Source of the DNA: Microbispora catharanthi
Lineage (GTDB): Bacteria; Actinomycetota; Actinomycetes; Streptosporangiales; Streptosporangiaceae
NCBI RefSeq assembly: GCF_006334915.2
Contig: NZ_VDMA02000014.1
Span: 186,001 to 250,000, forward strand
Direction of reading: 5' to 3'
Length of the DNA: 64,000 nt
Shown: positions 5,026 through 58,700 of the stretch, one piece after another
How positions within the stretch are numbered: position 1 is the first letter of the stretch
How the letters are laid out: each line of letters starts with the position of its first letter
The notes under the pieces: model-generated
Database searches by the model: none
Told to the model about the DNA's origin: nothing
What the model saw: the letters and a program-made list of their open reading frames with translations, nothing else
Made by a program: the position numbers and the translations under genes

Positions 5026-6894
5026 GTGTCCATTTCAGTAGAGGTACCGACGCCCACCACTCACAGCGATCTGGCGGCCTGGGTGACGCAGATCGCGGAG
5101 CTGACCCAGCCGGACCGGATCGAATGGTGCGACGGCTCCGAGGCCGAATGGACGCGCCTGACCAACCTTCTGGTCGAGCAGGGCACCCTCAAGCGGCTGG
5201 TCAAGCGTCCCAACAGCTTCTACGCGGCCTCGGACCCGAGCGACGTCGCCCGCGTGGAGGACCGCACGTTCATCTGCTCCGAGCGTGAGGAGGACGCCGG
5301 GCCGACCAACAACTGGATCGCGCCCGACGAGATGCGCCGCACGTTCGCCACCCTGTTCAAGGGCTGCATGCGGGGCCGGACGATGTACGTCGTGCCGTTC
5401 TGCATGGGCCCCCTGGGCGGGACCATCTCGCAGCTCGGCGTCGAGATCACCGACTCGCCGTACGTCGTGGTGTCGATGCGGATCATGACCAGGATGGGAG
5501 AGGAGGCGCTGCGCCTCATCGAGGAGCGCGGAGCGGCGCGAAAGGCCCGGGAGAGCGAGGCACGCGCCAACGAGGGCCGCGGCAAGCGCGACCAAGAGCA
5601 CAGCGACTTCGTCAAGGCGGTTCACTCGGTGGGCGCGCCGCTGGAGCCCGGCCAGGCCGACGTGCCGTGGCCGTGCAGCCAGACCAAGTACATCAGCCAC
5701 TTCCCGGAGACCCGCGAGATCTGGTCGTACGGCTCGGGTTACGGCGGCAACGCGCTGCTGGGCAAGAAGTGCTACGCGCTGCGGATCGCCAGCACGATGG
5801 CCCGCGACGAGGGCTGGCTGGCCGAGCACATGCTGATCCTGAAGCTCACGCCGCCGCGGGGCGAGGCGCGGTACGTCGCCGCGGCCTTCCCGTCGGCGTG
5901 CGGTAAGACGAACCTCGCCATGCTCCAGCCCACGATCCCGGGCTGGAAGGTCGAGACGATCGGCGACGACATCGCCTGGATGCGCTTCGGCCCCGACGGC
6001 CGGCTGTACGCCATCAACCCGGAGGCCGGCTTCTTCGGCGTCGCGCCCGGGACCGGCCAGTCGACGAACGCCAACGCGATCGAGACACTGTGGGGCAACA
6101 GCATCTTCACGAACGTCGCGCTGACCGACGACGGGGACGTCTGGTGGGAAGGCCTCACGGACGAGCCGCCCGCGCACCTCACCGACTGGAAGGGCCGTGA
6201 CTGGACGCCGGAGTCCGGCGAGCCCGCCGCCCACCCGAACGCCCGGTTCACCACTCCGGCCGAGCAGTGCCCGACGATCGCCCGCGAGTGGCAGGACCCG
6301 GCCGGGGTGCCGATCTCGGCCATCCTGTTCGGCGGCCGCAGGGCGACCGCGGTGCCGCTGGTGACCGAGTCGCTGAGCTGGCAGCACGGCGTCTTCCTGG
6401 GCGCCAACGTGGCCTCGGAGAAGACCGCGGCGGCCGAGGGCAAGGTCGGCGAGCTGCGCCGCGACCCGTTCGCGATGCTGCCGTTCTGCGGCTACAACAT
6501 GGGCGACTACTTCGGGCACTGGCTCGAGGTCGGCAAGATGACCGACCCGGAGAAGCTGCCCAGGATCTACTACGTGAACTGGTTCCGCAAGGACGCGAAC
6601 GGCCGCTTCCTGTGGCCGGGCTTCGGCGAGAACAGCCGGGTGCTCAAGTGGATCGTCGACCGGCTGAACGGCATGGCCGACGCCGTGCCCACGCCGATCG
6701 GCAACCTGCCGGCCTCGCTCGACACCGAGGGTCTCGACATCGCGCCCGAGGACATGGAGCTCCTGCTCAGCGTCGACCCCGAGGTGTGGCGCGAGGAGGC
6801 CGCGCTGATCCCGCCCCACTTCGAGACCTTCGGCGACCACATGCCGAAGGAGCTGTGGGACGAGTACCGCGCCCTGCTCCAGCGGCTCGGCTGA
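5026..6894 (+). CDS. pckG: Phosphoenolpyruvate carboxykinase (GTP)
   Basis: The 622-residue protein is full length for the GTP-dependent PEPCK family. It converts oxaloacetate plus GTP to phosphoenolpyruvate, CO2 and GDP, the entry step of gluconeogenesis in the cytosol. The P-loop/catalytic cysteine motif FPSACGKTN (C292) is intact, as are the substrate-loop segment [14 protein letters not shown] and the Mn-site region around GDDIAWM. The GTG at 5026 follows AAGGAG with good spacing. GntR-like boxes upstream suggest carbon-source control, and glpX in the same window is the other gluconeogenic enzyme. Confidence 0.97.
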
Positions 6895-8214: not shown

Positions 8215-9525
8215 GTGGCAGTGTCCTCGAGCAACCCGTCCACATCCCGCACCTACGTTCTGGACACGTCCGTCCTGCTCGCCGACCCGGCGGCGATGAG
8301 CCGCTTCGCCGAGCACGAGGTCGTCGTCCCGATCGTCGTCATCACGGAACTGGAGGCCAAGCGCCACCACCCCGAGCTCGGCTACTTCGCCCGGGAGGCG
8401 CTGCGCTTCCTCGATGACCTCAGAGTGCGGTACGGACGGCTGGATGAGCCCATGCCGATCGGCGACGGGAACATCCGGGTCGAGCTGAACCATAGTGATC
8501 CGTCCTGCCTCCCGGCGGGCTTCCGCCTGGGCGACAACGACACCCGCATCCTCACCGTCGCGCAGAACCTCGCGGCGGAGGGCAAGGACGTGGTGCTGGT
8601 GTCGAAGGACCTTCCGATGCGGGTCAAGGCGGCGTCCATCGGCCTCAGCGCGGAGGAGTACCGCGCCGGCATGGTGGTCGAGTCCGGCTGGACCGGCATG
8701 GCGGAGCTCCAGGTCACCACGGAGGAGATGGACGCCCTCTTCGAGGCCGGCACGGCCGACATCGACGAGGCGCGCGAGCTGCCGTGCCACACCGGCCTGC
8801 GGCTGCTGTCGAGCCGCGGCTCCGCGCTCGGCCGCGTCCTGCCGGACAAGTCGGTACGTCTGGTGAGGGGCGACCGTGAGGTCTTCGGGCTGCACGGCCG
8901 GTCGGCGGAGCAGCGGATCGCGCTCGACCTGCTGATGGACCCCGACGTCGGCATCGTCTCGATGGGCGGTCGTGCCGGCACCGGCAAGTCCGCGCTGGCG
9001 CTGTGCGCGGGCCTGGAGGCGGTGCTGGAGCGCCGCCAGCACCGCAAGATCATCGTCTTCCGCCCCCTGTACGCCGTGGGCGGCCAGGAGCTCGGCTACC
9101 TGCCCGGCTCGGAGAACGACAAGATGGGCCCGTGGGCCCAGGCGGTCTACGACACGCTGGGCGCGGTGACGTCCCCCGAGGTGATCGAGGAGGTCATCGA
9201 CCGGGGCATGCTGGAGGTCCTGCCGCTGACCCACATCCGCGGCCGTTCCCTCCACGACGCCTTCGTGATCGTGGACGAGGCGCAGTCGCTGGAGCGCGGC
9301 GTGCTGCTGACCGTGCTGTCCCGCATCGGGGCCAACTCGCGGGTCGTGCTCACCCACGACATCGCCCAGCGCGACAACCTGCGGGTGGGCCGGCACGACG
9401 GCGTCGTCGCCGTGGTGGAGAAGCTCAAGGGCCACCCGCTGTTCGCCCACATCACGCTGACCAGGTCCGAGCGGTCGCCGATCGCCGCCCTGGTGACCGA
9501 GATGCTGGAGAACATCACGCTCTGA
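8215..9525 (+). CDS. phoH2: PhoH2: PIN-domain RNase fused to a PhoH ATPase
   Basis: The 436-residue protein has an N-terminal PIN domain at about residues 15-150 (acidic motif [12 protein letters not shown], conserved [17 protein letters not shown]). A PhoH P-loop ATPase domain follows at about residues 220-436, with Walker A GRAGTGKS near residue 253 and Walker [12 protein letters not shown]-PhoH proteins of mycobacteria are RNA helicase-RNases. The gene is a member of the conserved block with fumarase and glpX. The GTG at 8215 follows GGGGGAGA at 8203-8210; a second GTG two codons on is equally possible. Confidence 0.92.
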
Positions 9526-9535
9526 TCGGATCACG

Positions 9536-10093
9536 TCACGGGGGGAGATGGCCGTCCTTGGGGGCCAGATCCCAGAACTCCCGGCAGGTGTGGACCTTCA
9601 GGGGGCCGTTCCTGTCGGGAGTCGCGTGAGCGATCTCCACGGCCCAGATCTCCGGGCGCAGCCGCGCCGAACAGGTGATTTGGGCCATGGCGGTCCTGGT
9701 GATCTTCCAGCCGCTCACGAACAGCCGTACGCGCAGGCTGAGGGTGTTGTCGGGGTCGTTGCGGCTGCCCGCGTCCGGGGCGTACCTGACGAGCTGCACC
9801 TGGGCCAGCGTGAGCCCGGTCAGCGCGGTGGACAGCCGGTTCGACGTCCGCCCGCTGGCCGCGAACAGCGCGTCCAGCACGTCGTTGACGTGCGGCGAGC
9901 GCGCCGCGACCCGGGTGGGCCACAGCCGGCCGTCCCGCAGCAGGTAGATCGTGACGAGGGTGGGGGTGCCGCTGATGACCGGCGCAGGACCGGCGTCGAC
10001 CACCCCGGTCGGCGCGACCCCGCAGGCCGCCGGCGCCATGAGCAGCCCCGCGAGCAGGGCCGCGGCCGCGCGTCTGATCCGTCTCCTGCTCAT
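9536..10093 (-). CDS. Lipoprotein encoded with the AfsQ-type two-component system (GerMN-like)
   Basis: The 185-residue product has a short basic N-terminus, a hydrophobic stretch and a lipobox ending in PAAC at residue 24, so it should be a lipid-anchored extracellular protein. The region with VTIYLLRDGRLWPTRV and SPHVNDVLDALF resembles the GerMN (sporulation/spore germination) fold. Its ATG overlaps the stop of the sensor kinase by four bases, so it is the third gene of that operon. By analogy to the lipoprotein next to Streptomyces afsQ2, it may modulate signal sensing. That role is inferred. Confidence 0.75.
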   Translation of the reverse strand: MSRRRIRRAAAALLAGLLMAPAACGVAPTGVVDAGPAPVISGTPTLVTIYLLRDGRLWPTRVAARSPHVNDVLDALFAASGRTSNRLSTALTGLTLAQVQLVRYAPDAGSRNDPDNTLSLRVRLFVSGWKITRTAMAQITCSARLRPEIWAVEIAHATPDRNGPLKVHTCREFWDLAPKDGHLPP

Positions 10094-11535
10094 GGTTTCG
10101 GGATCCAGACGCGGAAGAGAGTGCCGGGGTCGCAGCGCTCGGCCGTGATCGAGCCGCCGTGCAGCTCGGCGTTGGCCTTGGCGATGGACAGGCCGAGACC
10201 GCTGCCCACGCTCCTGGCCCGGTCGGTGCCCGCCTTGTAGAAGCGGTCGAAGACGAGGGGGAGGACCTGCTCGGGGATGCCGCTCCCGTGGTCGCGCACG
10301 GTCACCTCGAGCGCTCCGTGATTCTCGCCGCCGACCGCCACCCGCGCGCTCACCACCACGGGGGGCGCGCCGTGGTTGAGCGCGTTGCCGACGAGGTTGG
10401 CCACGATCACGTCGAACCTCCGGGCGTCCAGGGAGAACGTGAGCCCGACGGGCACGGTGAGCTTCACCCGGTCGGCCCAGCCCCGCACCTCCAGGCAGTC
10501 GGCCAGCGTGTCGCCCACGTCGACGGTCTCCCGGCGGAGCGTGGCGGCGCCCGCGTCGAACCGGCTGATCTCGATGAGGTGCTCGACCAGCACCCGCAGC
10601 CTGTCGATCTCGCGGACGACGATCCGCACGGCCTCCCCGGCGTCGTCCGGCAGGTCCTCGGCGTCCTCCGACAGCATGTCCGTCACCGCGGTCATCGCGG
10701 TCAGCGGCGTGCGCAGCTCGTGGGAGACGTCGGCGACGAACCGCCGCGACATCGACTCCAGCGTCCGCAGCTCTGAGACGGTGTCCTCCAGTGCCGCCGC
10801 CGTCTCGTTGAACGTCGCGGTCAGCTCCGCCAGCTCGTCCCTGCCCCGCACGGGGAGGCGGACCTGCAGCTCACCGGCGCCGAGGGCGCGGGCGGCCGCG
10901 CCCAGCCGCCGTACGGGCAGCAGCACCCGCCGGGCCGACAGCAGGGCCAGGGTCAGCGCCAGGACGAGCGTGATGCCTCCGGCCTGCGCGAGGGCGGCCC
11001 TGAGGCGGGACAGCACGGCCTCCTCCTCCGACAGCGGCACGAAGACGTAGGCCGTCAGGCCCGTCGGGCGCAGCACGCCGTCGCGGGTGGCCCGCTGGAT
11101 CTGCGTGGCGACGATCAGCCACGGATGGTCCCCGAACAGCACCCTCTGGTAGACCAGCCGCCGGGCCGCCTGCCAGCGGAGCTGGTCGGGCACGTCGGTC
11201 ATGGTGAACCTGGCGCCGGTGTTGGAGCGCCGGTGGTCGCCGTAGGTCACGATGACGGTCCGGTCCGGGGCCTCGAGCGCCTGCACCACCCCGCCGAGGT
11301 CCTCGTCGGTGACGGTGGTGTCGCTCGGCCAGACCACGTCGCTCGCGCCGATCGGCAGCGTGATCCTGGACAGCGTCTCGCGCACGTCGGCGACGGCACC
11401 CCGCTCCGCGCGCTCCAGGAGCCCCCGGCGGACGATCTGGTATCCCAGGCCCGCCACCATGGCGGACGCGGTGACCGCCACCAGCAGGAAGGTGATCACC
11501 AGCCGGGCCCGCAGCCCGGTGGGCACCCAGGTCAT
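10090..11535 (-). CDS. afsQ2: Sensor histidine kinase, AfsQ2-like
   Basis: The 481-residue membrane kinase has a first TM helix at about residues 10-32, an extracytoplasmic sensor region, a second TM at about 185-205 and a HAMP linker. Then come HisKA with the phosphoacceptor in DVSHELRTPL (H272) and a HATPase domain with the N box (VANLVGNALNHG) and G boxes (DHGSGIP, GSGLGLSIAKA). It should autophosphorylate and pass phosphate to the response regulator encoded 7 bp upstream. The AfsQ2 name rests on the gene order regulator-kinase-lipoprotein and on the close match of the partner regulator to AfsQ1. Confidence 0.8.
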   Translation of the reverse strand: MTWVPTGLRARLVITFLLVAVTASAMVAGLGYQIVRRGLLERAERGAVADVRETLSRITLPIGASDVVWPSDTTVTDEDLGGVVQALEAPDRTVIVTYGDHRRSNTGARFTMTDVPDQLRWQAARRLVYQRVLFGDHPWLIVATQIQRATRDGVLRPTGLTAYVFVPLSEEEAVLSRLRAALAQAGGITLVLALTLALLSARRVLLPVRRLGAAARALGAGELQVRLPVRGRDELAELTATFNETAAALEDTVSELRTLESMSRRFVADVSHELRTPLTAMTAVTDMLSEDAEDLPDDAGEAVRIVVREIDRLRVLVEHLIEISRFDAGAATLRRETVDVGDTLADCLEVRGWADRVKLTVPVGLTFSLDARRFDVIVANLVGNALNHGAPPVVVSARVAVGGENHGALEVTVRDHGSGIPEQVLPLVFDRFYKAGTDRARSVGSGLGLSIAKANAELHGGSITAERCDPGTLFRVWIPKP

Positions 11536-11542
11536 GGCGGGG

Positions 11543-12217
11543 TCATGGCGGGCTGAAGCGGTACCCGAAGCCGCGCACGGTGTGGATGTAGACGGGGTCG
11601 GCGGGCACCGGCTCGATCTTGGCCCTGATGCGCTGCACGCACGCGTCGACCAGCCGCGAGTCCGCCACGTGCGTGTGGTCCCAGACGGCGCGCAGGAGGT
11701 AGCGGCGGTTGAGCACCTGACCGGGGTGGCGGACCAGTTCGAGCAGCAGGCGCAGCTCGGTCGGGGTGAGGTGGATCTCCTTGCCCGCGAGGCTCACCTT
11801 GAGGGCTCCGCGGTCGATCACGAGGTCGCCGAAGGTGAGGCGGTCGGGCGAGGCCGACTCGAGGCGGCGCAGAATGGCGCGGATGCGGGCGTCCAGGACC
11901 CGCGGCTCGACCGGCTTGACGACGTAGTCGTCCGCGCCCGCCTCCAGACCCACCACCACGTCGAGGTCGTCGCCCCTGGCCGTGAGCAGGATGATCGGCA
12001 GCGGATCGAGCCTGCGGATGCGGCGGCACACCTCGACCCCGTCGATGCCGGGCAGCATGACATCGAGGATCGCGATCTCGGGACGGCGGGAGCGTACGTG
12101 GTCGAGGGCCTCCTCGCCGGTGGCGTACGCGGTCACCGAGTGGCCCTGCCGGGTGAGCGCGAGCTCGAGTCCGGCACGGACCGAGGGGTCGTCTTCGACC
12201 AGGAGGATGCCTGCCAC
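11543..12217 (-). CDS. afsQ1: OmpR-family response regulator, AfsQ1-like
   Basis: This 224-residue regulator has a receiver domain (acidic pocket E8-D9-D10, phosphoacceptor D52 in LDVMLPG, switch T in LLTAR, K in DDYVVKP) and a C-terminal winged helix with SRLVDACVQRIRAKIE as the recognition region. The sequence closely follows Streptomyces AfsQ1. A GTG start at 12217 has a -10-like CATAAT about 7 nt upstream and no ribosome-binding site, so the mRNA may be leaderless. A perfect AfsQ1-type box lies 40 bp upstream, consistent with autoregulation. AfsQ1 controls antibiotic production and nitrogen metabolism in Streptomyces; the regulon here is unknown. Confidence 0.85.
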   Translation of the reverse strand: MAGILLVEDDPSVRAGLELALTRQGHSVTAYATGEEALDHVRSRRPEIAILDVMLPGIDGVEVCRRIRRLDPLPIILLTARGDDLDVVVGLEAGADDYVVKPVEPRVLDARIRAILRRLESASPDRLTFGDLVIDRGALKVSLAGKEIHLTPTELRLLLELVRHPGQVLNRRYLLRAVWDHTHVADSRLVDACVQRIRAKIEPVPADPVYIHTVRGFGYRFSPP

Positions 12218-12256
12218 CCGGTCATTATGGTGCGGACCTCACCAATTCCCCTATTT

Positions 12257-12272
12257 GTCACAGTCCTGTGAC
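12257..12272. promoter_or_regulatory. AfsQ1-type binding box
   Basis: GTCACAGTCCTGTGAC fits the published AfsQ1 consensus GTnAC-n6-GTnAC exactly and is also a perfect 7-2-7 palindrome. It is centred about 47 bp upstream of the regulator start and about 35 bp upstream of the candidate -10 (12224-12229). That is a position suited to activation of the regulator operon, but it could also serve the divergent transglycosylase gene. Confidence 0.6.
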
Positions 12273-12347
12273 CTCGCCCGCACGCCATCATCAAGAAGCG
12301 GGAGCAGGCTGGTGCCGGGCACCCATGCCTCTCCCTGTGGCGCAAAG

Positions 12348-12363
12348 TGTGATCAAAATCACA
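12348..12363. promoter_or_regulatory. CRP-type binding site
   Basis: TGTGATCAAAATCACA matches the CRP consensus TGTGA-N6-TCACA at all ten defined positions. It lies 107 bp upstream of the transglycosylase-like gene start and about 130 bp from the afsQ1-like gene. Mycobacterial Crp regulates the muralytic gene rpfA, so control of the downstream wall-acting gene is a reasonable inference. Confidence 0.6.
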
Positions 12364-12469
12364 TTATGGGGGAAAGTCCATGTGATCGGCGGTCGGGTCA
12401 AGACGTCACCAAACAGGTACCACGATTCGGTTGCGGAGCACCCCCCACCACAGGGCAAGCTCATAAGCC

Positions 12470-13180
12470 GTGAGCTCTGGTCAGCAGTTGAAGGATCGCC
12501 CCCGCGCCTCCCGGCCCCGGCGGGGAGCTGACGGCCGCTCCGGGTCGGGCCGGCTGACTCCCAAGCGGATCGCGATCCTCGGCGTCAGCGTGGCCGTGCT
12601 CGCGGGCGGGACGGCCTTCGTGGTCCGCACCTCGATCGAGCACGGCAACGCGCCCAAGCAGGTGCTGGGCCCGGACAGCTTCCTCGCCCTCGACCCGAAC
12701 GCGCCCGACCCCGAGACCGACATCCTCAAGGAGCAGGCGGTCCAGGCGCTGCGCAAGGACAGGCTGCAAAGCACCCGCGACGACCGGAAGAAGGGTCTCG
12801 ACCCGGTCGAGATCGCGCAGAAGGCCCCCGGCGGCGGTGGCTTCACCCCGGCCGACTTCCCGCCCGGCTCCACACCGGACCCCGGCAGCAACAAGGCGCT
12901 CGGCAAGCAGATGGCCGAGGCGCGCGGCTGGGGCGGCGAGTGGGGCTGCCTGGAGAAGCTGTGGGACAGGGAGAGCCACTGGAACGAGCGGGCCATGAAC
13001 CGCTACAGCGGCGCCTACGGAATCCCCCAGGCGCTGCCCGGCAGCAAGATGGCGAGCGCGGGCTCCGACTGGCAGACCAACCCCGCCACCCAGATCAAGT
13101 GGGGTCTCGGCTACATCGCCGGCCGCTACAAGACGCCCTGCGGCGCCTGGGGGCACTCCCAGTCCACCGGCTGGTACTGA
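12470..13180 (+). CDS. Secreted/anchored lytic transglycosylase-like protein
   Basis: The 236-residue protein has a basic Arg/Gly/Ser-rich N-terminus, one TM or signal segment at about residues 33-52 (IAILGVSVAVLAGGTAFVV), a charged linker, and a C-terminal domain from about residue 143. The motifs there are CLEKLWDRESHWNERAMNRY, SGAYGIPQALPG and IKWGLGYIAGRYKTPCGAW. This is the lysozyme-like fold found at the C-terminus of actinobacterial resuscitation-type and aggregation-promoting proteins, with the probable catalytic Glu in DRESHW and a cysteine pair. It should act on peptidoglycan outside the cell. Upstream sites for CRP and AfsQ1 suggest control by carbon state and envelope signals. The GTG start lacks a strong ribosome-binding site. 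Confidence 0.8.
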   Translation: MSSGQQLKDRPRASRPRRGADGRSGSGRLTPKRIAILGVSVAVLAGGTAFVVRTSIEHGNAPKQVLGPDSFLALDPNAPDPETDILKEQAVQALRKDRLQSTRDDRKKGLDPVEIAQKAPGGGGFTPADFPPGSTPDPGSNKALGKQMAEARGWGGEWGCLEKLWDRESHWNERAMNRYSGAYGIPQALPGSKMASAGSDWQTNPATQIKWGLGYIAGRYKTPCGAWGHSQSTGWY

Positions 13181-13282
13181 GCCTCTCCCAGGTCCGCCTG
13201 GTCCGCGAAACTCTGGTCAGGGTTTCTCGACCTTTCGGCAAGCCCGCGCGTACGGCGGGGGTCGCACTGCACCCTTGGCCTC

Positions 13283-51061: not shown

Positions 51062-52150
<1,089 letters not shown>

Positions 52151-52170
52151 ACCGGCCCTGTCCGCCCTGC

Positions 52171-52454
52171 TCATGCCTTCGGGGGCTCGTTCCGGGGCAC
52201 ATCTGGGGCACACGACCAGGCGTCATCTACCGCTCGGCGAGTCCGTTCCTCGGAGTCCGGCATCAGGTGACCATAGGTCGAGAGAACGAGGTTGGCGTTC
52301 TCGTGCCCCAGACGTTCGGCCACGACGATGACCGATTCATCCTGCATCAGGGTTCCGCCTCGGCATGGCGTCAGCCAGCGCCCGCACCTGGTCTACGGTC
52401 AGCGGGACGATCCGTTCCCGATGCGCGGTCGGCAACGTCAGCCGGACGACGGGC
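52171..52454 (-). pseudogene. Tyrosine recombinase/integrase remnant
   Basis: Two integrase pieces are readable on the minus strand. The first is VVRLTLPTAHRERIVPLTVD, followed by QVRALADAMPRR (core-domain start), upstream. Then, after a frame change, comes VVAERLGHENANLVLSTYGH, followed by LMPDSEERTRRAVDDAW, which holds the catalytic His (LGH) and nucleophile Tyr (STYGH). The catalytic Arg and the HxxR region, about 90 residues, are missing at the junction near 52340. So the gene has an internal deletion with a frameshift and no functional product is expected. Confidence 0.8.
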
Positions 52455-52804
52455 GAGCGGGTGACGGACTCGCACGTGCGGTCGGCGAGGTGAACAGCCG
52501 GCTGCGGCGCGACGAGTTCACCAGCGTGATTGTCGTCAGCCTGACGGATGTCGGCGGTTCGTGGCTGTGATGTGGGGGTGCAGCGCAACGCTCTGCTCCG
52601 TCCTGTTCCTCCGGAACGCGGAAGATGAAACCGCTGAAACGCAAAATCCCAGCTCACAAGCGGCGCCGGAGGTTTGCCGCAGCAGAGACGGGATGGACAG
52701 CCAAGGGCGTGGCTGTACGCCTACGAGCCAGCCATCGAGGCGTGACATGTCGATCGAAGGTAAGATCACCGCGCCCCAATCCTGGGCTAACTTGTGGAGA
52801 ACCC

Positions 52805-53506
52805 GTGTCTCAGCCCCCATACGACTCGCGGGGATACCCGGACATAGACAGCCAATCTCGCCCGCCATACGCGGAGTCAGACGGCCAGCCCGAATACCAG
52901 GACAGCGGCCAACCGCCCGACCCCGCCTACCCCAGGCCTTCGACGTCTCCACCAACAAGGCGCGACGTCAGCAGGATCATCCTCATCGTTCTTGCCGGGC
53001 TGGCCATTGCCGTCGGTAGCGCTGCTGTCTTCAAGGACCACATCCAGCGCAGTGTGCAGACGCACGTCGTCGAACCGAAGACACTCAACGGTCGGCCCAA
53101 GTTCGTGGACACCGATTTTCGGGCGCTCGCCGACCAGACGGCTGCCGATGTGAAGAAGGGGATACCGGAAGCGACTGGCGTATTCACTGCCTACTATGGC
53201 GACCCGACAAGCCTGGTCATGATCGTCGGCCTGTCAGCTCACATCACCGCCCAGGACGCGAAAGCCAGACAGCTCATCGCCATCGTGGCCGACGGGCTGA
53301 AGGTCACCAACGTGAAGCCAGTCGAGCCGGGTCCGCTCGGTGGCGTCGCTAAATGTGGCGACGCTAGTGTCGCCGGCTTTCCGAGTGGCGTCTGCACCTG
53401 GGCCGACAGTGACACCATGGGGATGATCTTGATTTACCTCAAGTCTGGTGATCAGGCTGCGGCCGAATTCGTAAAGCTGCGCAGTGAGATCGAGCAGCGC
53501 AACTGA
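52805..53506 (+). CDS. Membrane-anchored protein of unknown function, element cargo
   Basis: The 233-residue protein has a Pro/Gln/Tyr/Asp-rich cytoplasmic N-terminus (residues 1-60), one TM helix (RIILIVLAGLAIAVGSAAVF) and an extracytoplasmic domain with two cysteines (KCGDAS, GVCTWAD) that may form a disulfide. No family recognised. I start it at the GTG at 52805, which follows GGAGA at 52796-52800; an upstream extension would be Arg-rich and atypical. It is less GC-rich than the core genes and lies between att copies 1 and 2. Confidence 0.75.
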   Translation: MSQPPYDSRGYPDIDSQSRPPYAESDGQPEYQDSGQPPDPAYPRPSTSPPTRRDVSRIILIVLAGLAIAVGSAAVFKDHIQRSVQTHVVEPKTLNGRPKFVDTDFRALADQTAADVKKGIPEATGVFTAYYGDPTSLVMIVGLSAHITAQDAKARQLIAIVADGLKVTNVKPVEPGPLGGVAKCGDASVAGFPSGVCTWADSDTMGMILIYLKSGDQAAAEFVKLRSEIEQRN

Positions 53507-53694
53507 CCCCGTCGAGCCACCTTGCCCCGCAGGGTCCAGGACGCAGCATGATCAGAGGAACGCTGGCCGCTGGGGGCACGTACGGGGCGCAAGACACCGT
53601 GAAACGTCGGCAACGAACGACCACCGACGTGAGACCAGAAGACCGCGCGACCAGCACGGAGAGCTCCGCACGCAGATCACCTGAGCGACGGTCA

Positions 53695-53715
53695 GAGTTC
53701 CGCTTCAACGTCTGA
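53695..53715 (+). repeat. Attachment-site repeat, copy 2
   Basis: This is identical over 21 bp to the last 21 bp of ychF, followed by CCC as in copy 3. It is not part of a gene. Upstream TCAG is also shared with copy 3, so copies 2 and 3 resemble each other over about 27 bp with one mismatch. Confidence 0.75.
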
Positions 53716-53799
53716 CCCGGCGCGAGACCGCTCAGGCGGCCGGCCGGGTCCGCGCCGCGGGTTGCGGCGCGGACACGGCCGACCGGTGTCACCGCCGGT

Positions 53800-56217
53800 T
53801 CAGCTGCGCGACCACTTCTGGTTCGCGCCGCCGTTGCACGTCCAGATCACCAGCTGCGTGCCGTTGGCGGTGCCGGCGCCGTAGGCGTCCAGGCACTTGT
53901 TCGAGCCGACCCCGACGATCGTGCCGTCGGAGTTGAGCGTCCACTGCTGGTTGGCGCCGCCGTTGCAGTCGTAGATGTCGACCCGGGTCCCGTCCGCCGT
54001 GCCCTGTCCGTAGGCGTCCAGGCACTTGGTGCCGTAGACCATCAGCTGCTTGGACGGCGTGAGGGTCCAGGTCTGGTTGGCGCCGCTGTTGCAGTCCCAG
54101 AGCGCGACCTGGGTGCCGTTGGTCTGGGACGAGTTGGGGACGTCGACGCAGCGGCCGGAGGCCTGGCCCCTGATGGGGCCGACGCTGCTGTCGCCGTTTC
54201 CGCCGCTGGTCGCGGTGACGGAGAGGTTGTCGAACATGTCGGTCTGGTATCCGACCACTCCGAGCCCGACCTGTCCGGTGTAGTAGGAGCCGTCCGTCAC
54301 CGAGCCGAGCGCGGCGCCGTCGAGGGTGGCGCTGATCTGGTTGCCCGAGAAGCTGAGCGTTACCGTGTGCCAGGTGTTGGTCCCGAGCGAGCCTCGGGAG
54401 CCCGAGGTTAGGGTGCTCACCGTGCCGGACGTGGTGCTCTTGGCGATGGACCAGGCTCCGGAGCTGTTCAGCCGCAACTGGTAGGCCGCCTGGTGGCTCT
54501 GCGGGCGCTGCTGCGTGTTCGCCCGCCCGAGCAGCGTGATGGTGCCGGCCTGCTGGAAGTCGACGTCCACGCTGACCTTGTAGTTGCTCCAGGACGGGTC
54601 GCCGACCAGGCCGAAGGCGTCGCTGTCGTCCTGCCATTCGATCGGACGCTGGGGGGTCACCTGCTGCAGGCACTGACCGGCGCGGCCGGCGGCGCAGGGC
54701 CGGACCTCGAAGGATCCCTGCATGTCGGAGAAGTACTTGGCCTCGGTGCGGGAGGCGTAGGCGTCGAAGTCGTCGGAGTACGGCAGAGCCAGCGGCGCGC
54801 TCGCCGGGCCGGCCTCCGTGCCCTTGCCCTGGCCGGTGGTCGTGGTCACCGAGTAGATCCGGTTCGGCTGCATGGTGAGTGAGTAGGAGCCGTTGCTGGG
54901 GGTGATGTCCGGCTGCCTGACGAACCAGTCGGCGGGGTTGTTCGAGCCGAGGTTGGTAGACCACACGTGCACGGTCCCGGTGCTCAGCCCACCTGTCACG
55001 CTGACGTTCACGGTCTGCGTGGTCGTCGACGTGGTGGTCTCGTAGATGGTCGAGTAGTCGGTGTTGTTCGTGGACTTCAGGGAGATGTAGCTGCCGTTGC
55101 TCCGGTTCCCGCCGAGGTATCCGCTCGCGGAGCCGGTGAGGAAGCGCCAGCCCGGCTGGGTGAACTGGGCGACCTGGGCGTTCGCCCACAGGCTGCGGCC
55201 CAGCTGATAGGAGCCCGACCACGGTGAGTTGGCGACCGCCAGGGCGGTGGTGTTGAAGGGCAGGTTCGGGTAGAGCGCGGCCACCAGCGGCCAGTTGACG
55301 AAGCCCGTCATCTGGCCGTCGAGGTATCCGCGGGTGATGCTGCGGATGTAGGGGGCCGAGCCGCTGATGTAGTCCTGCGATCCGAACTCGCTGTTCCAGA
55401 TCGGCTTGCCGGTGGCCACGGCGTTCGCGCTGGACGGACACGAGGTGGCGTCGCCCAGGTAGCCGCACAGGTAGTGCGACCCGACCACGCCGACCGCGGC
55501 CTTGAACGCGGGGTCGCTCTGCATGTCGTCCGCGGTGGACAGGCCGAAGCTGTCGTCGCTGACGATCTGCACGTTGCCGTAGCCGTTGGAGTTTAGGGCC
55601 GACCGGAGGTTCTCGTACCAGGTCTTGTTGTGCCCGCGCTCGTTCCATCCGCCGATGTAGTTGATCGTCAGGCCGTGCTGCTTGGCGCAGTTGAGCCAGG
55701 AGATGTCGTAGTCGATCATGTCCTGGGACCAGAAGTTCCCGCCGCCGATCCAGCCCGGCGCGGTCCACGGCAGCGCGATCAGCTTGATGTTCGGGTTGCG
55801 CGCCACCGCCTGCTCGCCCAGCCAGAACTCGTAGCCGACGTTGCAGTTGATGTCACCGCGGGTGTGCTCGATGCTGGGCTCGGAGCCGTCGGTGGAGTTG
55901 GCGTCACCGCCGATCTCCAGTTTCAGCAACTGCACCGCCGCGCCGTACCCGGGCTTGAACAGGTAGTCCAGGATCTGTGAGCGCTGCGTCTCCGGGTAGT
56001 CGATGAGCAGCCGGGAGTTGCCGCCGCCGCCGCTGATCGCCCCCACCCCGTCGAACGTGCGTCCCGTCGAGCCGCCGTTCACCGTGATGGTCGTCGTGGC
56101 CGCCTGGGCCGCCGGCGCGGTCATCACCACGGCGCCGGCGCCGGTCACGGCCGCCGCGACCGTCGCCATCATGATGCGGACCCATTTCCTGTCGCCGACT
56201 AGTCGACGTTTGCGCAT
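53800..56217 (-). CDS. Secreted GH59 galactosylceramidase-like glycosidase with C-terminal ricin-type CBM13
   Basis: The 805-residue protein has a long signal peptide (residues 1-39, ending AQA). A catalytic region like animal galactocerebrosidase follows: FDGVGAISGGGGNSRLL, SQILDYLFKPGYGA, KLEIGGDANSTDGSEPS, LPWTAPGWIGGGNFW. The acid/base is E193 in WNERGHN and the nucleophile E277 in WNSEFGS. A beta-sandwich similar to the GALC lectin domain follows, then a ricin B-type domain from about residue 680 with QxW repeats. It should release galactose from galactosides outside the cell; glycolipid versus plant galactan as substrate is undecided. The ATG follows GGAGG. It is in the second att-bounded segment. 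Confidence 0.85.
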   Translation of the reverse strand: MRKRRLVGDRKWVRIMMATVAAAVTGAGAVVMTAPAAQAATTTITVNGGSTGRTFDGVGAISGGGGNSRLLIDYPETQRSQILDYLFKPGYGAAVQLLKLEIGGDANSTDGSEPSIEHTRGDINCNVGYEFWLGEQAVARNPNIKLIALPWTAPGWIGGGNFWSQDMIDYDISWLNCAKQHGLTINYIGGWNERGHNKTWYENLRSALNSNGYGNVQIVSDDSFGLSTADDMQSDPAFKAAVGVVGSHYLCGYLGDATSCPSSANAVATGKPIWNSEFGSQDYISGSAPYIRSITRGYLDGQMTGFVNWPLVAALYPNLPFNTTALAVANSPWSGSYQLGRSLWANAQVAQFTQPGWRFLTGSASGYLGGNRSNGSYISLKSTNNTDYSTIYETTTSTTTQTVNVSVTGGLSTGTVHVWSTNLGSNNPADWFVRQPDITPSNGSYSLTMQPNRIYSVTTTTGQGKGTEAGPASAPLALPYSDDFDAYASRTEAKYFSDMQGSFEVRPCAAGRAGQCLQQVTPQRPIEWQDDSDAFGLVGDPSWSNYKVSVDVDFQQAGTITLLGRANTQQRPQSHQAAYQLRLNSSGAWSIAKSTTSGTVSTLTSGSRGSLGTNTWHTVTLSFSGNQISATLDGAALGSVTDGSYYTGQVGLGVVGYQTDMFDNLSVTATSGGNGDSSVGPIRGQASGRCVDVPNSSQTNGTQVALWDCNSGANQTWTLTPSKQLMVYGTKCLDAYGQGTADGTRVDIYDCNGGANQQWTLNSDGTIVGVGSNKCLDAYGAGTANGTQLVIWTCNGGANQKWSRS

Positions 56218-56638
56218 GCCGGACCTCCGGGGCTGTCCGTGTGGGGGATGAGTGACGGGCGGTTCGCCGGCCCTGCTGGATTCAGAGCGGTTGGCCCCAG
56301 CACGCTCGGCTCGATACCGTCGGTCACGCTTTCTGTTGGAAGCCGTTTGAAAATGTCAGAGCGGTTGGGACGTGTCAAGACATTGTCAGGATGGAAAGAT
56401 GGCGTGTGAACGTGGTTGAACTGGCGTGCAGCGGAAACGTGCGTGTCGAACGTCGCCTGCTATGAATGTTTCAGGCGTACGCGTACGTTCGGTTGCGCTC
56501 GGTTATGGCAGAGATTGTTGGAACGCGAGCCAGCGAGGTTTCTGCGGCGCGGCGTCAGGTGATGCCTGCGATCCAGCGGTATGACCTCGGTCTCCAGCGC
56601 GGGCCGGACCGGTCCACGTCGCCAGGATGGCGATCAGG
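56218..56638. promoter_or_regulatory. Non-coding region upstream of the GH59 gene
   Basis: About 420 bp without a supported gene. On the minus strand TTGACA (56373-56378 on the plus strand) could be the -35 of the GH59 gene. A 13-bp direct repeat TCAGAGCGGTTGG occurs at 56282-56294 and 56356-56368, 74 bp apart, and may be a regulator site. The part from about 56400 to 56638 shows no gene; it ends in att copy 3. Confidence 0.4.
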
Positions 56639-56657
56639 GTTCCGCTTCAACGTCTGA
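56639..56657 (+). repeat. Attachment-site repeat, copy 3 (distal)
   Basis: GTTCCGCTTCAACGTCTGA is identical to the end of ychF over 19 bp and shares flanking TCAG and CCC with copy 2. It lies 6 bp beyond the 3' end of the GNAT gene, which is probably the original chromosomal neighbour of ychF. Confidence 0.75.
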
Positions 56658-56663
56658 CCCTTC

Positions 56664-57140
56664 TCAGACGAGGTCGCGGTAGTAGTAGAACATCGGCTCG
56701 GTCGCCCCGGGCTCGCTGTTGGCGAAGCCGTGCGCCTCGTAGAAGCGGCGGGTGTCGGTGTCCTCACCGTCGACGTTGATCTCGAGCGTCTCCGCGCCGC
56801 GTTCCCGCGCGACGCGGCACGCCTCTTCCAGCAGGGCGTGCCCGAACCGCTGTCCGCGCGTGCCGGGCCGCACGTACAGCTCGTCCAGGAGCGCGGCCGG
56901 ACCCTCCTGCCAGACGTTGGGCCGGAAGGACAACACCGCGACGCCGACGGCAGGTTCGCCGGTGAGAAGGGCGACAAGGTGGTCCCCGGCGATCATTCGG
57001 CGGAGGCGCGCCGTGAGCACCTCCGTTCCCGGTGACGGCGTGTCGAACTCACGGTTGAAGGCGTCCAGCAACTCGGCGACGACAGCGGAGTCGGCCGCCG
57101 TCGCCCGCCGTACCAGGTGCTCTTGCCGAGGTGTGGCCAC
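56664..57140 (-). CDS. GNAT-family N-acetyltransferase
   Basis: The 158-residue protein has the GNAT acetyl-CoA motif (VRPGTRGQRFGHALLEEACR) after LDELYV, and the typical end FYEAHGFANSEPGATEPMFYYYRDL. The family transfers acetyl from acetyl-CoA to amines; the substrate is unknown. The GTG at 57140 lies 8 nt after AGGAAGG. It converges on the distal att repeat. Confidence 0.85.
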   Translation of the reverse strand: MATPRQEHLVRRATAADSAVVAELLDAFNREFDTPSPGTEVLTARLRRMIAGDHLVALLTGEPAVGVAVLSFRPNVWQEGPAALLDELYVRPGTRGQRFGHALLEEACRVARERGAETLEINVDGEDTDTRRFYEAHGFANSEPGATEPMFYYYRDLV

Positions 57141-57262
57141 CTCCGCAACCTTCCTGCCCGGCCCGGCGGACCGCAAGATATTTTCGAGCATCCGCGGAAG
57201 AGGGCGGAGTCGCTGGCCGTGCGCGACCTCCTGGATCGGCTGCCTGAGGAGCACCGCAGGCA

Positions 57263-57397
57263 CTGCTCGTCCTCGTCCTGGCGGCGACGGCGGGCTCCGG
57301 CGCTTGCGACGATCGGGAACTGGCGAAGATCATTGAGGATCCGCTGGTCCGGACGGTTCGCGTGGCGGACGTCACCTACGATCTCGAACGGCCCTGA
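57263..57397 (+). pseudogene. Lipoprotein N-terminal fragment
   Basis: One frame encodes LLVLVLAATAGSGACDDREL, then AKIIEDPLVRTVRVADVTYD and a stop, a signal peptide with lipobox (AGSGAC) and a short mature part. There is no ATG or GTG in frame, only CTG after GAGGAG at a long spacing, and the protein stops after 44 codons. It looks like the 5' piece of a decayed lipoprotein gene. A tiny real lipoprotein is possible. Confidence 0.4.
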
Positions 57398-57706: not shown

Positions 57707-58348
57707 ATGCATCGGAAATCCGGACAGCTGGCTCTCGCGGCGATTTTCGCCTCGACGCTCACGGCCGGCGGAATCGCGCTGCTCGGCGGCACCGCCTCCG
57801 CGGCCACGAGCGAGCCCGGCGGCTCGGTGCGGGCGACGTCGTACACCACCACCATCAGCGAGCCGTTGCTGGCGACCGAGGCCGTGCCCATGGCTGGGAC
57901 GGTGCCGATCGGCGTGCCGAGCATCACGATCGCGGAGTTCCCGGCGCAGTGGTCCGCCGGGCGGTACACCGGTTCGAGCCTGCGAAGCGAGGCGTTCCCG
58001 GGCATGGGCGCACCGATGGAGCAGATGGCGGAGGAGGCCCGGCAGAGCATCAGGGACGAGGCGAGCAGCGCCACACAGCAGATCATGCAGGAGGCGGCGA
58101 GCGCGCAGCAGCGCATCGAGCAGATGTCCCAGCGCGCGCAGCAGCGGGTGTCGGAGCAGGAGCAGTCACAGTCGCAGTCGTCGGCCGGCCAGTCGCAGAG
58201 CTCCTCGCTGCCGGAGAGCGCTCCGGGTAGCGCTCTGGGCAGTGCTCCGGAGAACGTCCCGCCGGCGATCTCGGGTCCGGAGAGCGCACCGCCGACGGGC
58301 ATCCTGCCGAAGTCGGGCGAGTCGTCCTCCTCTGGGGCGTGCCAGTGA
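57707..58348 (+). CDS. Secreted Gln/Ser-rich coiled-coil protein of unknown function
   Basis: The 213-residue protein has a signal peptide (residues 1-33, ending ASA). A region of unknown type is followed by a helical Gln/Ala/Glu-rich stretch (residues about 105-155, QSIRDEASSATQQIMQEAAS) that should be a coiled coil, and a Ser/Pro/Gly-rich disordered tail. No family recognised. It has a strong AAGGGGGG ribosome-binding site and is followed by a clear terminator, so it is a monocistronic, probably well-expressed exported protein. Confidence 0.75.
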   Translation: MHRKSGQLALAAIFASTLTAGGIALLGGTASAATSEPGGSVRATSYTTTISEPLLATEAVPMAGTVPIGVPSITIAEFPAQWSAGRYTGSSLRSEAFPGMGAPMEQMAEEARQSIRDEASSATQQIMQEAASAQQRIEQMSQRAQQRVSEQEQSQSQSSAGQSQSSSLPESAPGSALGSAPENVPPAISGPESAPPTGILPKSGESSSSGACQ

Positions 58349-58401: not shown

Positions 58402-58700
58402 GGTGCGTACGGTCGGTTTCGTTATGCCTGCGAGCTGCGAAGACAGCAATAGGTGGCGGTTAGGTAATCGATGCCCCCGCTGGCCAGGCGTAACGTGCTT
58501 TTCCGCGGAGTGGATAGGTGTGGGGCGCCTCTACGGGATGTAGACCTGGTTTGCTCGGTCGCGGCGATGCTTGCACCATGGGCGTGGCTTACCTGGAAGA
58601 ATTGGCGAGACCGCTAGGGTGAATACTTCAATGCGGTTAACCGGATCGAGAGCAAGAGGAAACCGCGCCAGCCGGAGGGATCGGCGCGAGCGGAGGCGTG
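58402..58700. other. Non-coding region before the secretion-like locus
   Basis: About 300 bp with no supported gene. It holds a 10-bp perfect palindrome CGGTTAACCG (58634-58643) about 60 bp upstream of the TcpC-like gene and a ribosome-binding site CGGAGG (58691-58696). It presumably contains the promoter of the following operon, but I could not assign -35/-10 elements with confidence. Confidence 0.4.

Follow-up and report, generated by a model that had tools for sequence, protein, structure and literature searches.

The ychF 3′ end as a probable docking site of two tandem, decayed mobile elements in Microbispora catharanthi

Described stacked elements and the ychF locus

Actinomycetes are already known to carry decayed elements stacked on one another at a single site. 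In Streptomyces turgidiscabies, the island PAISt occupies the 3′ end of bacA, where three copies of the gene tail delimit two modules (PMC4057263). The locus analysed here lies in a 64,000-nucleotide stretch of Microbispora catharanthi DNA (assembly GCF_006334915.2, contig NZ_VDMA02000014.1, positions 186,001 to 250,000), hereafter called the window, at the 3′ end of ychF, the gene for the conserved housekeeping GTPase YchF. This gene end most likely served as the docking site for two mobile elements, which now lie in tandem. As at PAISt, a tyrosine integrase is associated with the 3′ terminus of a protein-coding gene, the insert is split into two modules by three copies of that gene's tail, and C-terminal integrase remnants are found at the attachment (att) sites, the latter as described for PAISt relatives (PMC4057263). 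PAISt differs in its bacA target, its integrase, its size of 674 kb, its demonstrated movement and its 8-bp palindrome (PMC4057263), whereas the ychF locus spans 4.5 kb, is decayed and is known here from sequence alone.

A second group for comparison is formed by the actinomycete integrative and conjugative elements (AICEs). Surveys of AICEs give tRNA genes as the main target of those with tyrosine integrases, the pSLS subfamily excepted, and report tandem elements as well as a case with three repeats (PMC3218068). In one Streptomyces set, 14 of 51 AICEs were located in protein genes, and decay to a partial integrase, cargo and two repeats was described in the same genus (PMC9513070). The ychF locus resembles the pSAM2/RepSA-type AICEs in that a relative in Microbispora rosea has genes for integrase (Int), excisionase (Xis) and RepSA, tandem and decayed forms being known for AICEs (PMC3218068, PMC9513070). 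It differs from AICEs, which target mostly tRNA genes, in its target, and no tRNA gene was found in the window; in addition, no transfer gene of the FtsK/SpoIIIE-type TraB class was found in general protein scans of the window and the M. rosea locus (L035), no dedicated TraB search having been made. Att-flanked cargo that lacks an integrase is termed a cis-mobilizable element (CIME). The second segment at ychF is likewise cargo without an integrase, flanked by att copies 2 and 3 and stacked beside a related element; it differs in that it is recognised from its nucleotide sequence, its mobilisation being hypothetical.

Insertions near ychF have been reported in Streptococcus pneumoniae, where prophages sit beside the gene, but at an upstream site of 14 bp or 26 bp and not at the ychF 3′ end (PMC6375853, PMC10383233, PMC8637289). 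No insertion at the ychF 3′ end was found in the literature searched, in which the reported ychF insertions were all upstream and pneumococcal; supplementary tables were outside this search, and a site may be listed there. An earlier annotation made from the DNA letters only (the sequence-only reading) also knew of no described ychF attachment site (attB). In the ychF passages of PMC12811286, YchF is named only as a phylogenetic marker. No paper on Microbispora integrative elements with an attachment site was found. The ychF attB, the breadth of its use and the integrase lineage appear to be new.

Core copies, insertion-free alleles and element ends

The ychF gene (51062–52150, + strand; Pfam YchF-GTPase_C and MMR_HSR1) ends in the codons F-R-F-N-V and a stop, and these final codons with the stop correspond to the attB/attL core. 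The 19-mer GTTCCGCTTCAACGTCTGA from this tail was present, exactly and on the + strand each time, at 52132–52150, 53697–53715 and 56639–56657. Copies 1 and 2 have 21 bp in common (52130–52150 and 53695–53715, both + strand), while copies 2 and 3 are 93% identical over 30 bp, including TCAG upstream and CCC downstream. Copy 1 was assigned as the attL core within ychF, and, based on core scans and a right-end profile, copy 2 as an internal att core and copy 3 (+ strand) as the outer attR core, beyond which a GNAT acetyltransferase gene (56664–57263, − strand) marks the chromosomal flank. Within the window, three matches to the 19-mer were found at up to three mismatches compared with none in 100 shuffles, and the genome of 9,249,895 bases contained exactly three at up to two mismatches, all at the ychF locus. 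The scans thereby confirmed the three exact copies and the shared TCAG and CCC flanks that the sequence-only reading had described; scattering of the repeat over many unrelated loci, which that reading had named as counting against an attachment site, was not seen in this genome.

An allele without the insert was found in a congener (G139, L039), in which ychF is directly followed by the GNAT gene with a single core, as had been anticipated for relatives lacking the insertion. When the window flanks were joined at copies 1 and 3, 449 of 466 aligned positions were identical to this allele. A second pair was provided by genome G118, which has a 15.5-kb insert between two cores and whose joined flanks share 445 of 469 positions with L108, an insertion-free locus in the same genus. 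The ychF end in G118 reads GTGTAG, whereas L105 and L108 (same genus) and the distal G118 copy read GTCTGA. Since the G118 gene end differs from both its sister and its distal copies, this suggests that strand exchange may take place upstream of that final ychF codon, with the element supplying the gene end. As a separate observation on this region, CTGCGARGACAGCAATA is located at window position 58435, 6.3 kb after ychF, compared with only 25–36 bp after ychF in L105, L108 and L109; by this offset, the GNAT gene and the gene at 57707 may likewise be insertions relative to those genera.

To characterise the flanks, an ungapped 25-bp right-end profile was built from six loci in five other genomes (L034, L035, L036, L046, L151 and L230) and scored at 127,950 positions, representing both strands of the window. 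Native ychF flanks were taken from a survey of 95 loci from 93 of the 205 genomes, out of 297, that matched a pattern search; 88 of these loci were alignable. The flank of copy 3 (56614–56638, + strand) ranked first with a score of 18.0 and that of copy 2 second with 17.8, these scores being reached by one and two positions, respectively. The flank of copy 1, which is native ychF, scored 7.2, and the best of the 88 native ychF flanks 9.7. By these ranks, copies 2 and 3 are each flanked by what looks like an element end, and the stretch before copy 3 is interpreted as the relic of an element right end.

The same data bear on whether the ychF tail could have been duplicated by slippage or recombination with no integrase involved. 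The copies are short and exact, and ychF-like sequence precedes the weaker copies found in three surveyed loci (L119, L121 and L123), both of which would suit such an origin. The arms that precede copies 2 and 3, however, are of the element type and not ychF coding sequence, insertion-free alleles exist, and at 15 loci an integrase alignment stops no more than 50 bp from the core (see below). Simple duplication was rejected based on the right-end profile at copies 2 and 3, and is considered extremely improbable.

The best explanation, to which we assign a probability of roughly 0.85, is that the ychF tail is the attB of a tyrosine integrase lineage and that it received at least two insertions, followed by decay. 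The ychF 3′ end would thus be recognised by the tyrosine integrases of small actinomycete integrative elements, the best-kept relative of which has RepSA, Xis and Int, and recombination within the core would leave the ychF frame complete while placing a second core at the far end. An element carrying a GH59 glycosidase gene would have entered first, and a second element would then have entered between ychF and the GH59 element, giving three cores and two segments. Both would later have decayed, the integrase of segment 1 losing its catalytic middle and segment 2 being left without one; with no working integrase in either, the cargo would remain between the att copies. That an integrase targets the 3′ end of a protein gene and restores the gene on insertion had already been proposed from the sequence, and the insertion-free allele and the integrases found beside ychF support it.

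The two segments and the order of insertion

Segment 1 (52151–53696) is a decayed element whose integrase lacks its catalytic middle. The tyrosine integrase remnant aligned to an open relative of 368 aa (L051) as two pieces only, in two frames. The C-terminal piece (52171–52353, − strand), which forms the left end of the element, corresponds to residues 310–366 of the L051 integrase at 84% identity (81% in a second comparison), and the central piece (52349–52483, − strand, other frame) to residues 145–182 at 84% (71% in the second comparison). Missing are residues ~183–309, including GLRLGE (193) and HDLRHH (299), which we take to be the catalytic R and HxxR motifs; LSTYGHL (332), presumably the tyrosine motif, is kept in the C-terminal piece (L051 numbering throughout). 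The stop codon of the remnant (52171–52173, − strand) lies 21 bp past the ychF stop. A 13-bp match to the left half of copy 3 (ATCAGGGTTCCGC, 52346–52358), considered as a fourth, half core, was regarded as a probable coincidence because it sits at the junction of the two integrase pieces with integrase codons on both sides.

Of the AICE gene set int, xis and rep, only the integrase pieces were matched, the xis and RepSA queries finding nothing in the window. Elsewhere in the same genome no close integrase of the ychF type was found, long matches being 31–34% identical and short pieces up to 47%. It is probable that neither segment encodes an integrase able to move it. The cargo of segment 1 is a 232-aa protein (52808–53506, + strand) with no Pfam family above the cut-off and, as judged by eye, one probable membrane span. 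It was matched in 8 of 150 family genomes, the window genome included, and the latter has a second copy. The right end of the segment (53573–53696, + strand) comprises a conserved stretch of ~95 bp and a 25-bp TCAGA-type arm; the stretch, starting at 53573, was 81–87% identical to L034, L035, L036 and L046 and 78–81% to L047, L048 and L049. A relative of the cargo protein (68%) was also observed at 6079–6774 of L241 (G104:C9:329000-341500), where a right-end motif and core (two mismatches) occur at 9141, 2.4 kb from the cargo relative and not beside ychF.

The best-kept relative was found in M. rosea ATCC 12950 (G187; L035/L050), with a first segment of 3.2 kb and the same order as in the window: ychF, core, integrase (split, two frames), HTH_17 excisionase, the C-terminal half of a pSAM2-type RepSA, a SnoaL-like gene, core, GH59 and GNAT. 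In the 200 bp that directly follow ychF, the two loci are 97.5% identical; blastn gave no match in the interior of their first segments, from which it follows that their cargo differs.

Segment 2 (53716–56638) carries an open frame for a GH59 glycosidase of 805 aa whose C-terminal domain is a ricin-type lectin (53800–56217, − strand; PF02057, E 1.8e-108; PF00652). GH59 was found at ychF in 5 of 15 Microbispora genomes (the window genome, G187, G206, G155 and G097). In G187, G206 and G155 (L035, L037 and L040), the GH59 segment starts right after the core and ACCGGCGCYGTCCGCC, which is the left end of the integrase-bearing element. The GH59 gene may thus have come on an element, and segment 2 is probably the older, integrase-less one, segment 1 being a later insertion between ychF and segment 2. 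GH59 itself was tried as a marker for the element and rejected, as each of the 12 genus genomes of 15 with a GH59 match had one or more such matches on a different contig or at a distance from ychF (the ychF of G168 was not located).

A different history would be that a single integration event brought in one compound element of the PAISt type, which had an internal att copy and became smaller afterwards. The three-copy island of S. turgidiscabies moves whole or in modules (PMC4057263), which gives this some precedent, and more than one order of events is compatible with the window by itself. The congeners, however, display several states: the GH59 segment without segment 1 in three (L037, L040 and L045), another single segment at ychF in G125, and another segment with a decayed third core in G216. 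Stepwise gain fits these varied states better than a single compound insertion, which is considered very unlikely.

Several observations weigh against two integrase-mediated insertions at ychF. In L035, L037, L040 and L045, the interval from ychF to GNAT holds GH59, but 19-mer scans at up to four mismatches detected no copy 3; of these four congeners, G097 shows a weak echo of it at most. The GH59 segment could therefore have arrived otherwise, and its status as an att-bounded element rests on end signatures. The left end of the window segment after copy 2 is partly diverged, the similarity before copy 3 stops after 25–30 bp, and when the 190 bp preceding copy 3 were aligned with gaps to other right ends, none of five comparisons outscored 200 shuffles. 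Other genomes have a few core copies accompanied by the right-end motif at places other than ychF (L046, G216:C57, at 4819; L151, G257:C28, at 8781), which may be secondary sites or translocated element ends. Close integrase relatives in L051 and L053 have neither ychF nor a core beside them, and a fragment in L073 is at a contig end. Finally, apart from the window, an integrase-like match downstream of ychF was seen in only 3 of the 88 surveyed flanks (L035, L047 and L134), so that most core copies came without a recognised integrase; this slightly lowers our confidence in the best explanation.

Some of these points would be expected if only segment 1 were att-bounded, with GH59 already placed between ychF and GNAT by ordinary recombination and copy 3 left by an unrelated event. 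The four congeners lacking copy 3 favour this, as does the frequency of GH59 genes among Microbispora genomes (12 of 15). Against it, copy 3 is flanked by the best right-end match of the window, the GH59 segments in L035, L037 and L040 start after the core with ACCGGCGCYGTCCGCC as in the integrase-bearing element, and a core adjoining GNAT would be difficult to account for had no insertion occurred at that place. Confinement of the att boundaries to segment 1 is on balance unlikely. The proposal of the sequence-only reading that two tandem insertions account for three copies was supported, with segment 2 less well documented than segment 1.

The integrase lineage and possible further users of the site

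Use of the ychF 3′ end as an attB recurs. With the M. rosea integrase as the query, 25 loci were obtained from the named genome collection, 15 of which had the integrase beside ychF (Micromonospora, 11; Microbispora, Catellatospora, Sphaerisporangium and Geodermatophilus, one each). In all 15, the integrase alignment ended within 50 bp of the ychF core, and in 10 a further core (up to three mismatches) was present within the retrieved DNA. Only one of the 15 integrases was open and full-length (L069, 371 aa); three were longer but broken (L050, L052 and L054) and 11 were C-terminal fragments. All seven remote relatives (36–38%) had a tRNA-Arg(CCT) gene within ~400 bp. The suggested search for intact integrases at ychF was productive, with open full-length genes in L069, L190 and L191, where inserts of 9–18 kb terminate distally in a second, near-identical core.

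No integrase relatives at 60% or above were found in phage and plasmid collections, nor in IMG/VR by back-translated peptides. A search of 394 genomes of the class gave 30 genomes at E ≤1e-50, with a best identity of 46%; in the corresponding 30 loci (~1.5 kb on each side), ychF lay beside the integrase only in L160 and tRNA-Arg only in L183. Integrases adjacent to ychF occupy three separate positions in the integrase tree, interspersed with unlabelled rows, but a single change to ychF targeting suffices if the unlabelled rows are ignored; such targeting may have arisen once or more than once.

As YchF is conserved, the tail of its gene offers elements a reliable place to land that requires no tRNA gene. 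In Microbispora, Micromonospora, Sphaerisporangium, Catellatospora and Geodermatophilus, knowledge of this attB helps annotators to find the boundaries of elements that would be easily missed, most of their integrases being truncated. Open integrases, such as that of Geodermatophilus sp. YIM 151500 (L069), are candidates for site-specific integration tools, and the ychF site allows element decay and cargo retention to be traced from one species to the next.

In the family survey, a direct core copy (up to three mismatches) was found downstream in 9 of the 88 ychF flanks (L034, L035, L036, L049, L102, L119, L121, L123 and L143), those in L119, L121, L123 and L143 being weaker, and an inverted copy in none of the 88. 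The seven loci of the 95 that fell outside the survey for want of a full ychF alignment included three with far-end cores (L080, L086 and L106), one that probably has such a core (L133), one with a lone core (L151) and two with split or partial ychF alignments (L118 and L141). Further inserts at ychF, of ~3.4 to 17.7 kb, were found in G005, G118, G111, G090, G101 and G042; those of G005 (17.7 kb) and G118 (15.5 kb) look complete and have open integrases. A far-end decayed core with the right-end motif was present in G104 (L242), L047 and L048. In G162, an integrase fragment is at ychF and the right end with a core on another contig, and G288 has an integrase-like gene (38%) at ychF.

Phage-type genes were present in some of these inserts. 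A phage major capsid gene lies within the 9 kb between the cores of L069, tape-measure-like genes were found in the G118 and G005 inserts, and a D5-type primase in that of G118. In the 15–18 kb inserts of L190 and L191, tail tape-measure-like genes were observed at 8991–12677 and 10049–13219, respectively; no capsid was seen among the few proteins scanned from these two, and L190 gave a weak FtsK-like match (phrog_31069, E 1.9e-6); these two may be satellite or conjugative elements. When two of its positions were allowed to be C or G, the core was also found in 17 IMG/VR contigs. An integrase homologue lay within ~700 bp of the core in eight of them (L244, L245, L248, L251, L255, L256, L259 and L260, of which L244 and L248 look alike) and not in the other nine. 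The arm GTTTCYGCAGGT is common to four IMG/VR contigs, the far end of the G111 insert and L102. Temperate phages may use the same attB.

A much wider role can be imagined, in which the ychF 3′ end would be a docking site shared across the Actinomycetota by unrelated element classes, with cargo moved in trans by visiting integrases in an integron-like economy. The classes would be RepSA elements, elements bearing capsid or tape-measure genes, and temperate phages, and integrase-less cargo with conserved ends would persist at the site. Both the phylum-wide docking and this mix of classes are speculative, and we regard them as quite unlikely.

Two further observations were made on integrases and cores at a distance. 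In L243 (G005:C2), a second integrase with an excisionase-like gene was found at 9479–10606, not beside ychF. In L246 (IMGVR_UViG_3300031454_000147), an integrase piece at 10851–11564 was 64% identical to the integrase of the G118 insert, and a ychF-type core was present at 2154, 8.7 kb away.

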